Notes under the pieces: generated by a model
Told to the model about the DNA's origin: nothing
Database searches by the model: none
Seen by the model: the letters and a program-made list of their open reading frames with translations, nothing else
Part shown: positions 920 to 4,647 of the stretch, piece by piece
How the letters are laid out: each line of letters opens with the position of its first letter
Position numbering within the stretch: the stretch's first letter is position 1
Assembly: GCF_002994745.2 (NCBI RefSeq)
Contig: NC_037090.1
Location: 19,208,001-19,272,000 of the forward strand
Reading direction: 5' to 3'
Length of the DNA stretch: 64,000 nt
From: Rosa chinensis
Taxonomy: Eukaryota > Streptophyta > Magnoliopsida > Rosales > Rosaceae
Translations under genes and position numbers: made by a program

Positions 920-3900
920 ATGAGGATGATTATTGTGATTAGTGCGGTAATGGTGCAATGGTTCGGTGGCATAGCCTGCCTTAAGTGGATATGGAAGAAT
1001 TGGTTCATTATTGTGGTGATTGTGACATGGAACGTAATAGCCAGTCTTGGGTGGATATGGAAGAGTAGGTTCAGTTACACCTTTGAAACCCCAGAGCAGA
1101 TATCAGAGGGTAATCAGGAACTGGTTGACGTCGTTGAAACCCCAGAGCCAATATCAGAGGATCATCAAGAACTGCTTGACGTCGTTGAAACCCCAGATCC
1201 AATATCAGAGGATCATCAAGAACCGGTTGACGTCGACGCCTCTTCATCATCAGCTGAATCACCAGCTCCTACGTGGAAGCATGATGTGTTTTTGAGCTTC
1301 AGGGGTGAAGATACTCGTAAGAGCATCACATTCTCTTTATACAATCGACTGCAAAAAAGGAGAATCAAAACATTCATGGATGACCCAGATCTTCAACGAG
1401 GGGATGTTATTTCTTCCGCTCTGCCAACGGCAATTAAAGAATCAAGGTTTGCAATTGTTGTTCTCTCTCAAAACTATGCCTCTTCCACTTGGTGTTTGGA
1501 GGAACTGAGACACATTTGTGAATGCATGAAAGGAGACAACAATAGAATTCTACCACTTTTTTATAATGTGGATCCTACTGATGTAAGACGTCAGAAGAGC
1601 AGTTTCGGAGATGCTTTAACTAAGCATGAAAATTCTAGGCGACACGGAGAGAAGGTGCAGCAGTGGAGAGATGCTTTAACAAAGGTGGCAAATTTCGCCG
1701 GGTGGCATTCAGCGACATTTAAGTAAGCTTGATGAAAACTTTTTTTTTAAATTAGTAATACTTGTGCTTTTGAATTTATCATTAATTTTTCCCGATGATT
1801 TTTTGACCCGTAATGCTTACTTGCAGAAATGACGAAGAACTTTTGGTTCAAATTGTGGAAGAGGTGTGCAATAAATTACGACCGACTGAACCTGTGTTAA
1901 AAGTGTCCCTCGGAGATTTTGAAGAATTTGCAGCAACAAAAGAAGCCATTGATAAGGTCATGGAGGCGCTAAAAGATGGTGAGGCCACTACCATTGGAGT
2001 CTACGGCATGGGGGGCGTTGGAAAGACAGCAATGGTGAAACATGTAGGTGTACAAGCCGAAGAAAAAAAGCTTTTTAATAAAGCGATTATGGCTGCCGTA
2101 TCCCAACAACCCGACTTGAAGAAAATTCAACAGGAATTTGCAGAAACGCTGGGCTTGGAATTCAAGGGGACGACGGAAATTGTAAGAGCCCGAGAATTGA
2201 AGGAGAAAATAATGAGAGAAACCGGGATCCTCATAATCTTGGATGACATTTGGCAGACAATAAAGTTTTCAGACATTGGAATTCCGAGCCACAAGGAACT
2301 TCAAACATGCAATTCCAAAGTCCTAATGACCACCAGAAGTTTCAAAGTTTGCCATTCCATGGGGAGCCATGCAAAAATTCCTCTCAATACCTTATCAAAA
2401 GGAGATTCTTGGCGCTTATTTGTGAGGGAAGCGGGGATTTCTTCTGACAAATCTTCCAATTTCTGTGATGTAGCGAGTGAGGTGGCAAGAGAATGCGCTG
2501 GTCTACCAATGGCTTTGATAGCAGTTGCGAGGGCCCTTCGAGGTGAAGGCTTGGATGGATGGAAGGAAGCTGCTCGACAACTAAAAGCGTCTCAACCTCC
2601 CATCCCTGAAGATGAGGGAGATGTGTTCAAATGCATAAAGTTAAGCTATGATTACTTGAAATCTAATGATTCCAAATCATGCTTCTTGCTTTGCTGCCTG
2701 TTCCCAGAAGATTATGATATCCCAATTGAATACTTGTTCAAGTATGGAATGTTTCAAGGTTCAAACTTGCTACGAGCCCGAGAGAGAACACATTCAGTGG
2801 TGAAGGCCCTTAAAGATTCTAGCTTGCTTTTAGACGGTAGATATGACGGACTTGTAAGGATGCATGATGTCATTCGGGATATGGCAATGCGAATTTCGTT
2901 ATCTGAAGGCCCGCGGTTCTGGGTGATCAAAGATGGCTATGAAATGAAGAATTGGCCAAACTATGCGATCTCAATAAAGCATAACAGCAAGCTACCCAAA
3001 GAGTTGGTATGTCCAAATCTCCAGATTTTATTACTACAAGCCCGTTCTCTAAAGGAGATCCCAAAATATTTTTTCGCAAGTCAAAATGAATTAAGAGTCT
3101 TGGATCTTAGCTACAATGATATTTCATTACTACCCCAATCAATCAGTTTCCTAACCAACCTTCGAGCTTTGTATTTAGATCATTGTAAGAACATAACTGA
3201 CATTTCTGTAATCGGAAAACTTCACAAGCTTGAGATTCTTAAAATGAAATCAAATGGTCTGAGAGAATTGCCAAGAGAAATAGGACAATTGACCAATCTA
3301 AGGATGCTGGATGTCAGTGTTAGTGAAAGTTTCTTTCCTAAAATCTTTTCTAGATACAGGGATGGATGTATTAGCACAATTCCATCTAAAGTGATATCAA
3401 AGTTGCATAAATTAGAAGAACTGTACATGCAATACTGTGGATTTTGGGGTTGGGGGAGTAAAATTGATGGAGAAGGAGAAGAAACTAATATTGGCTTTGA
3501 TGAATTAGCTGGTTTATCATATTTAAGCATTTTGAAAGTTTGCATATCAGATGCAAATTGCATCCCTAAACGTGTTAAGGTCCAACCGAATTGGGATTAC
3601 TTTGATATTAAAATTTCCAGCAGACAGAGGGACAATATGAAATTACAATCTGGTCATAATTGTAGAACCTTGAGTCTTGATAGCACTGACACAACCATAG
3701 GAACCTTTCCGGACTGGTTTGTCAACGCTGGGGTAAAGAATACTGAGAGGCTACGTTATGAAGAATGCAAAAATTTGAGTAACATTCTTGTGGAATATGA
3801 CCGTGGGAAGTTACATGGACTGAAATTTCTCTCTGTAATTGGTCGGTGTGATAAGTTGAAAGAATTGATGGATGCAAATCATGCAATAACATGTGTTCCA

Positions 3901-4647
3901 GATATGCCTGTGTTTGAGAACTTAGAAGAGTTGTATCTAGAAAACCTGGGTGACCTGAAGAAGTTATGTGTTGGTGAGTTACCACCTGGATCTCTCCGCA
4001 GTCTGAAATTACTGGAGGTCAGTCGGTGTCCTAACTTGGGGAATGTACTGTTGCCATCAAAATTGTTGCAGAAACTACCAAATCTGGGAAAACTAATCTG
4101 TGAGACAATTGGAGTGGAATATGTGTTTGGATGTGAAGGATTTGAGCCAGATCAAACAAATCTGAGAGAGATGGAGTTGATGGATCTAGACGCAGTAATA
4201 AGCATATGTAATGGTCCTGCTCCACGTGGAATGTTCCAAGCTCTGAAGGAATTGGTCATTGACGGTTGCAACTTCCAGGGAAGCCTCTTCACATTTGATG
4301 TAGCTCAGTGTCTTTTTCAATTGGAAGACCTTTATGTATCCCACTGCCGTGTCTTGGAAAGAGTAATTGAAGCAAGGCGGGAAACAGTGAATAGCAAGAA
4401 GACCGTTCTTCCAAAATTGAAGAACTTATGTTTGGTATATCTTCCAAAGTTGTACGAAGGAAGTGCTACTATTGATTTTGAGTGTCCTTCATTAGAAAAC
4501 TTGTGTCTAACGGGGTGCCCCCACTTGTCATTCCCATGCTCTGCTTCTGACTTCTTCCACAGCAGGAAGCAAGCCCTTTTCAATGATCCTCTTCTTGGGA
4601 ATCGGATTCCCAAATTGATAGAGAAACAGTATGTCGCAGGGTCATAA
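920..4647 (+). CDS. Chimeric NLR: two hydrophobic segments, acidic repeats, TIR, CNL-type NB-ARC, LRR (copy 1)
   Basis: Two exons, 920-1722 and 1827-4647, joined by a phase-2 GT-AG intron, give 1207 residues. Residues 3-21 and 28-46 are hydrophobic with Lys/Trp between. Residues 56-106 are three 17-residue acidic repeats. The TIR starts near 120 (KHDVFLSFRGEDTR); Glu195 in WCLEEL is the expected catalytic residue. After a TNL-like linker (FKNDEELL) the protein becomes an RPS2/At4g27190-like NB-ARC: P-loop GMGGVGKTA (Lys334), kinase-2 LDDIW (406-410, whose Trp is the non-TIR hallmark), GLP near 493, MHD 613-615. LRRs fill about 650-1190; no coiled coil and no C-JID are seen. Known TIRs are NADases that signal through EDS1, while CNLs normally carry a CC domain, so this pairing is atypical. 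The start follows an in-frame stop. Predicted role: immune receptor, perhaps membrane-tethered (inference). Confidence 0.9.
1085..1237 (+). repeat. Three in-frame 51-bp tandem repeats (17-residue acidic units)
   Basis: Units at 1085-1135, 1136-1186 and 1187-1237 encode near-identical peptides of the pattern ETPxPISEDHQExxDVV. They lie between the hydrophobic N-terminus and the TIR domain, residues 56-106. Copy 2 of the gene has only two units (38673-38774). Copy 3 keeps a single damaged unit near 48871-48918. The units are rich in Glu, Asp, Ser and Pro and are probably a disordered acidic spacer. Confidence 0.95.
1723..1826 (+). other. Intron between TIR and NB-ARC exons, copy 1
   Basis: The donor is GTAAGC at 1723 and the acceptor CTTGCAG ends at 1826. 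The intron is phase 2 and 104 bp long. The same boundaries occur at 39275-39379 (copy 2) and 49414-49514 (copy 3). The donor itself creates an in-frame TAA (1724-1726), so an unspliced transcript would end right after the TIR domain. Confidence 0.9.

Follow-up and report, generated by a model that had tools for sequence, protein, structure and literature searches.

Does a TIR exon at the head of an RPS2-like gene mark a true hybrid immune receptor, and if so, how might such a receptor have arisen and how would it signal? The question is posed by a stretch of 64,000 nucleotides of the Rosa chinensis genome (NC_037090.1, positions 19,208,001 to 19,272,000, forward strand; "the window" below), which holds three related copies of a nucleotide-binding leucine-rich repeat receptor (NLR) gene. 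A sequence-only reading of the window had claimed that copy 1 splices the TIR domain of a TIR-type NLR (TNL) to the NB-ARC and LRR regions of a coiled-coil (CC) NLR (CNL) of the RPS2 kind. Pfam matches, the phase of the intron and phylogenetic trees all agree with that claim: a phase-2 intron links a canonical TIR exon to an NB-ARC-LRR of the At4g27190/RPS2 type, here called G10-type, and the arrangement is clade-wide.

Two long open frames of copy 1 (914-1726 and 1807-4647) are bridged by a GT-AG intron, and the spliced product of 1207 amino acids (aa) has no internal stop. Pfam recognizes in it TIR (E 2e-49), NB-ARC (2e-39) and LRR_RPS2 (PF23247, 1e-27, above the cut-off of that family). C-JID was not listed at E 0.001 in P0002, P0003, P0010 or P0024, in keeping with its reported absence. 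The kinase-2 motif reads LDDIW in copies 1 and 2, so that the non-TIR tryptophan singled out earlier stands; across the family LDDxW occurs in 114 of 134 proteins and LDD[VI][DNE] in none of the 134, the latter being a pattern that also misses RPP1. Ahead of the NB-ARC the features are those of TNLs. In a TNL intron pattern described from Rosaceae, the first intron is of phase 2 and sets the TIR apart (PMC9685399), and the linker may be compared with the apple TIR-NBS linker motif GYEAELIEKIVEEIWxK (PMC4169499). The linker of our family turns CNL-like just before GDFEAFEAT, where Rubus P0244 and Pyrus P0171 both keep ...FES.MST. TIR and NB are separated by 27-38 residues in 125 of the 130 relatives with a measurable gap (5 of 135 proteins with TIR and NB-ARC had none and were dropped), and by 34 residues in ROQ1, 29 in RPP1 and 27 in ADR2. 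Behind the linker, TIR-bearing members reach 67% identity to the CC-bearing Malus protein P0126 over 99% of the NB-ARC and first repeats; for copy 1 the figure is 56% over 96%. The family thus has the N-terminal TIR with catalytic glutamate, the post-TIR phase-2 intron and the linker of a TNL, while its NB-ARC lies outside the TIR-NLR clade, the kinase-2 tryptophan is present and C-JID is not listed; with G10-type CC-NLRs it shares the NB-ARC of the RPS2/At4g27190 clade and the RPS2-type LRR, but not the N-terminal CC(G10) domain.

The same junction had been reported from copies 2 and 3. This holds for copy 2, which is open (1181 aa when spliced) and has the same phase and intron border words as copy 1. 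In copy 3 the donor and acceptor words (49414 and 49505) also match those of copies 1 and 2, but the TIR region shifts frame and has in-frame stops and the NB-LRR region is split between two frames; judged by these lesions copy 3 is therefore a pseudogene, and it backs the junction only as a relic. Misassembly or chance joining, already thought improbable, is rejected, since the junction words recur at three places in the window and the proteins are recorded from several species. Over 1202 aa, copy 1 is matched at 100% identity by P0003, a public protein of Rosa chinensis; the P0003 model begins 10 residues earlier (relatives show similar MEFY/MEIY starts) and its last residues match near 5470-5535, so a start at 920 and an end at 4647 make only one possible model of copy 1.

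In the AlphaFold model of the relative P0010 (pLDDT 80.8, pTM 0.68) a helix predicted at the N-terminus with low to medium confidence is followed by a TIR, a helical linker, an NB-ARC and an LRR; as a monomer the model is uninformative on stoichiometry. The best match by sequence in the Protein Data Bank (PDB) is 9h2l, the 'octameric G10-resistosome from wheat', which is also the first Foldseek match, followed by RPP1. Single TIR domains lead the VIA-align results, which do not single out 9h2l, and the G10 assignment rests for this reason on sequence, trees and Foldseek.

Distribution and origin of the TIR-bearing family

The sequence-only reading had proposed looking for the same architecture in related genomes, and a large Rosoideae family was found. 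When copy 1 residues 100-700 were used as query, TIR (PF01582) was present together with NB-ARC in 119 of the best 120 of 1543 proteins; P0114, among these 120, has a TIR fragment only. The names shown among the best 120 are Rosa, Fragaria, Argentina and Rubus, all Rosoideae (Argentina is placed there by taxonomy, and Malus in Amygdaloideae). A domain scan found 135 relatives with TIR and NB-ARC, of which 112 have one of each, both at least 100 aa long. With Malus P0126 as query, 15 Malus, Pyrus and Prunus proteins were among the 120 matches listed, and PF01582 was in none of the 15. In homologues from Malus, Pyrus, Prunus, Vitis, Rosa (P0138, P0239) and Argentina (P0251) the same NB-ARC is preceded by a CC some 145 residues long. 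The Malus CC is matched by 78 proteins; TIR is found in none of them and an EDVID-like word in one. Some Rosoideae models begin in the linker or the NB-ARC without a TIR (for example P0130, P0131, P0134, P0244 and P0248).

Several proteins have additional domains. Two to four TIRs are stacked before the NB-ARC in the Rosoideae proteins P0004, P0017, P0024, P0025, P0034 and P0122, some of the upstream copies being more divergent. PF03106, which we take to be WRKY, is listed both in a Rosa TIR member (P0026) and in a Malus CC member (P0240). PF14215, presumably of bHLH-MYC type, is listed in Rosa P0063, P0065 and P0066, in which the TIR begins only at residue 241; a source name says MYC/MYB. Finally, P0252 of Rhododendron griersonianum has a TIR, a CC-like region (by eye) and a G10-type NB-ARC. 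It may represent a second TIR addition or a joined gene model, and it groups with its neighbour P0249, outside the Rosoideae TIR clade.

Trees of three kinds were used to place the family. The NB-ARC tree has 79 hand-chosen rows, among them three TNL references cut from PDB alignments, which lie on long branches; RPS2 itself was left out of the trees. The tree separates the TNL references at SH-aLRT 100, and the NB-ARC of the family does not fall inside the TNLs, the placement that had been set as the phylogenetic test of the hybrid. The window proteins lie in a Rosaceae group of 50 (SH-aLRT 99) adjoining Fagaceae. On this tree the TIR label takes 11 changes, models without a TIR exon being counted as non-TIR. 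In an approximately unbiased (AU) test on the same 79 rows, a single clade of TIR rows and CC-less Rosoideae models was not rejected (p 0.72), and the tree constrained to that clade was 8.3 log units better than the quick-search tree. A second tree, of NB-ARC plus LRR, has 52 hand-chosen rows and 907 columns; its 32 TIR and 5 linker-only rows form one clade (UFBoot 99, SH-aLRT 99), with the 14 CC-labelled rows, 13 of which match the CC profile (P0249 does not), outside it. A wide tree took in 217 proteins that run for 500 aa or more from the start of the NB-ARC, under a simple model with SH-aLRT only and with long-branch warnings. There, 136 rows make up the smallest group that encloses every one of the 121 Rosoideae TIR rows (SH-aLRT 100). 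The remaining 15 rows of the group are without TIR and without CC, none of the 68 CC rows lies inside, and CC-bearing proteins of apple, pear, Prunus, Rosa and Argentina fall outside. In all three trees the family is nested among CC-bearing At4g27190-like proteins. Because the Rosoideae TIR rows form one clade with the CC forms outside it, the CC was probably replaced once, by a TNL-derived TIR, intron and linker. A tree of the TIRs groups 35 of the family at SH-aLRT 88 and 40 at 85, while the TIR of the Rhododendron protein and an upstream TIR from P0059 stand apart; the donor of the TIR was not found in this tree, which has four TNL references and no Rosaceae TNL.

With TIR copies shorter than 120 aa, PDB references, P0001 and P0252 left out, the catalytic glutamate is present in 143 of 146 TIR copies, and each of the 126 proteins with a measurable TIR has at least one such TIR. 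In the one pair compared, copies 1 and 2, the TIR has a dN/dS of 0.56, the part preceding it 0.71 and the LRR 0.83, and the TIR is the most constrained part of the gene.

The segment before the TIR and a candidate signalling design

Copy 1 had been described as having no CC. The CC body is indeed gone, but some relatives keep a CC-derived N-terminal motif, close to W-I-W-T-x-V-K-R-x-x-S-Y-M-V, before the TIR. A profile built on residues 1-50 of each of 21 CC-type proteins was run against 47 pre-TIR segments of at least 25 aa, the window copies being left out and scored separately. It gave at least 10 bits in 13 segments and at least 5 bits in 18 (best 21.0), compared with 0 and 1 of 940 shuffled controls (best 5.8) and a best score of 1.2 for reversed segments. 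With this motif found ahead of the TIR in relatives, the swap seems to have taken out the CC body and left the CC beginning in place. The window N-termini align to the motif only through intermediate relatives such as P0015 and P0023. A strongly hydrophobic stretch, by hydropathy only, occurs in 28 of 84 pre-TIR segments of at least 19 aa, and in part of the relatives the CC remnant comes with a hydrophobic helix of membrane type. In the window proteins the KWIWK/GWIWK block occurs twice (920-1070 in the window), with two hydrophobic segments; other members have one.

We propose the following design, to which we would give a somewhat better than even chance. In a single N-terminal swap a G10-type (RPS2/At4g27190-like) CC-NLR would have exchanged most of its CC for three parts of a TNL, namely TIR exon, first intron and linker. 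Its LRR would sense an effector or a guarded host protein, upon which the G10-type NB-ARC would oligomerise, probably as an octamer; the TIR domains clustered on this wheel would form NADase centres, whose nucleotide products would act via EDS1-PAD4/SAG101 and the RNL helpers ADR1/NRG1, and in members that have it the N-terminal helix would tether the complex to the membrane. Plant TIRs placed on the mammalian NLRC4 wheel cause EDS1- and NRG1-dependent cell death (PMC7414095), and TIR NADase centres are described as arising between paired TIRs (PMC10586772); on these grounds a G10 wheel bearing TIRs should work. The signalling design is in this sense a well-founded inference with an engineered precedent, and its activity and oligomer are predicted.

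The earlier contrast between pentameric CNL and tetrameric TNL NB-ARCs fits this family badly, since RPS2 and WAI3, both G10 NLRs, reportedly form octamers (PMC12856790) and the nearest solved structure is octameric. In WAI3 the CC is said to sit on the nucleotide-binding domains with no CC:LRR contact (PMC12856790), an arrangement that would make the CC dispensable for the wheel. A bolder proposal, which we put forward tentatively and think more apt to fail than to hold, is that of a membrane-anchored, eight-spoked G10 wheel whose calcium-channel CC has been swapped for TIR NADases. An even ring would allow every TIR to pair, giving at most two TIR tetramers per ring, and the swap may for that reason have succeeded in the octameric G10 clade and not in the pentameric CNLs; Rosoideae would then have expanded a large arm joining a CNL-type sensor and motor to EDS1-RNL signalling.

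A number of observations weigh against the proposed origin and design. The Rhododendron protein also joins a TIR to a G10-type NB-ARC, so TIR addition may have occurred twice, and in the NB-ARC-only tree a group of 23 rows (SH-aLRT 89) mixes TIR rows with CC rows from Malus, Pyrus, Prunus and Rosa. For the pair of copies 1 and 2, dN/dS reaches 1.13 in the NB-ARC and 2.74 in the linker of 33 codons. The window N-termini are not significant against the CC-remnant profile (-2.4 bits for copy 1, WIN1, and 4.0 for copy 2, WIN2). The G10 reference 9h2l is without the kinase-2 tryptophan, and the VIA-align Z values of RPP1 and NRC3 chains are slightly above its own. The architecture is known here from genes and protein models alone, and the octamer and EDS1 steps are predicted from relatives.

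Four other explanations must be set beside this one. The models might be artefacts in which prediction has fused neighbouring TIR and NB-LRR genes whose proteins are made separately; this would agree with the Rosoideae models that begin in the linker or NB-ARC and with P0252, which may be such a join. We think it very unlikely, given donor and acceptor words that recur at three places of the window, the near-constant TIR-to-NB spacing in 125 of 130 relatives, an exon 2 that opens with a TNL-like linker, the single 136-row clade and the TIR dN/dS of 0.56 in one pair. Still less credible, to the point that we give it virtually no weight, is an ordinary TNL whose fast-evolving NB-ARC merely resembles those of CNLs: TIR, intron phase and linker are TNL-like, but the NB-ARC and first repeats are up to 67% identical over 99% of their length to CC-bearing Malus P0126, LDDxW is found in 114 of 134 proteins, C-JID is not listed, and the trees place the NB-ARC elsewhere.

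The remaining two explanations accept the hybrid and differ on what its N-terminus does. If the TIR did not deliver the output but served as an integrated sensor or decoy, or regulated a partner NLR, the stacks of two to four TIRs, the loss of the glutamate from 3 of 146 copies and an NB-ARC dN/dS of 1.13, which would fit a relaxed switch, would be accounted for; but the TIR stands in the signalling position, where the CC stood, with TNL spacing and with its glutamate in nearly all copies, and we hold this to be unlikely. In a dual-output receptor the CC-derived N-terminal helix would still insert in the membrane as in a G10 channel, with the TIR acting beside it. G10 CC domains are said to need their alpha-1 helix for cell death (PMC10586772), and the hydrophobic N-terminus (28 of 84 segments) and CC-derived motif (13 of 47) are what such a receptor would be expected to have; the rest of the CC is gone, however, many models do not have the segment, and a simple tether would account for it just as well, which makes dual output improbable.

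Features of the window

Table 1. Coordinates of the three NLR copies, in window positions
Feature	Position	Strand	Basis
Extra 5' exon (MEFYQYVFE) of public model P0003, optional	759..785	+	tblastn, P0003 residues 1-10 at 759-788, 90%; end read by eye
Copy 1 pre-TIR N-terminus: hydrophobic segments and acidic repeat region	920..1273	+	Kyte-Doolittle 19-residue maximum 2.16; helix 3-52 in P0010 model, low- to medium-confidence
Copy 1 TIR exon	920..1722	+	
Copy 1 TIR domain, residues 119-263, WCLEEL kept	1274..1708	+	PF01582 E 2e-49; alignments to RPV1 and ROQ1
Copy 1 intron, GT...AG, 104 nt, phase 2, between TIR exon and NB-LRR exon	1723..1826	+	
Copy 1 NB-LRR exon	1827..4647	+	
Copy 1 exon 2 start, TNL-like linker (DEELLVQIVEEVCNKL...), CNL-like from just before GDFEEF	1827..1911	+	apple TIR-NBS linker motif, partial text of PMC4169499
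Copy 1 NB-ARC, G10/At4g27190-type, residues 297-621	1912..2886	+	PF00931; trees; 9h2l best PDB match
Copy 1 LRR, LRR_RPS2 match ~4165-4527, no C-JID listed	2887..4644	+	PF23247 E 1e-27
Copy 2 TIR exon	38508..39274	+	
Copy 2 intron, 105 nt, phase 2	39275..39379	+	
Copy 2 NB-ARC-LRR exon	39380..42158	+	
Copy 3 degraded TIR region, two frames, in-frame stops	48862..49413	+	
Copy 3 NB-LRR, split between two frames (pseudogene)	49515..52339	+	

Between copies 1 and 2, Ty1-copia-type pieces lie in separate open frames at 10904-14954, the first two with gag, integrase and reverse transcriptase domains. They are flanked by PPR fragments on the minus strand (9182-10039 and 16235-16690), which may be one PPR gene split by the copia insertion. 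LINE-type pieces at 19314-25704 have DUF4283, endonuclease, reverse transcriptase and reverse-transcriptase-like (RVT_3) domains. A scan of the window with Rfam gave 0 matches.

Comparison with known systems

Classification of NLRs has proceeded from the premise that the N-terminal executioner domain tracks phylogeny (PMC10586772). A TIR on a G10-type motor uncouples the two, and sorting by TIR alone (as TNL) or by NB-ARC alone (as CNL) misfiles these receptors of rose, strawberry and their relatives. The family also offers a way, provided by nature, to ask whether TIR activity is limited by oligomer number, and it could reveal how one type of motor drives the other type of signal.

Part of this has been seen before. 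A 2024 study found strawberry TNLs to be polyphyletic, 72 of them forming a clade that sits with 70 CNLs, and mentioned recombination or functional transfer (PMC11617207). From its description alone that clade is probably the same family in Fragaria; the portion of the text on CNL-grouping TNLs names neither the G10 clade nor a replacement of the CC. Within the open-licence PMC literature we found no paper naming the CC-to-TIR replacement, its G10 clade or its distribution, and a text search of a rose TNL paper (PMC10045381) gave no mention of RPS2, RPS5, CNL, At4g27, LRR_8 or C-JID. The apple TCNL class, whose name suggests TIR plus CC, was considered as a precedent and rejected, its NBS motifs (LVIVDNVD, FLDISCFF) being of TNL type in the excerpts seen (PMC4169499, PMC3914791). 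In the abstract of a Trifolium paper, 'TIR-CNL' is a subgroup label (PMC10138078).

Canonical TNLs (ROQ1, RPP1, ADR2/WRR4A) resemble the rose family in TIR fold, catalytic glutamate, post-TIR phase-2 intron and linker length; the rose family differs in an NB-ARC apart from the TNL references, in LDDIW and in having no C-JID listed. G10-type CC-NLRs (RPS2, RPS5, WAI3; 9h2l) and the Rosaceae CC members such as Malus P0126 are alike in NB-ARC and RPS2-type LRR, whereas the rose family has a TIR and TNL linker in place of the CC body and a kinase-2 tryptophan that 9h2l does not have. The closest parallel in design is the engineered TIR-NLRC4 chimera (PMC7414095), which likewise sets a plant TIR on a non-TNL wheel. 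That chimera is man-made and the rose family natural, which suggests that an N-terminal swap, so far a feat of engineering, can succeed and expand in evolution.

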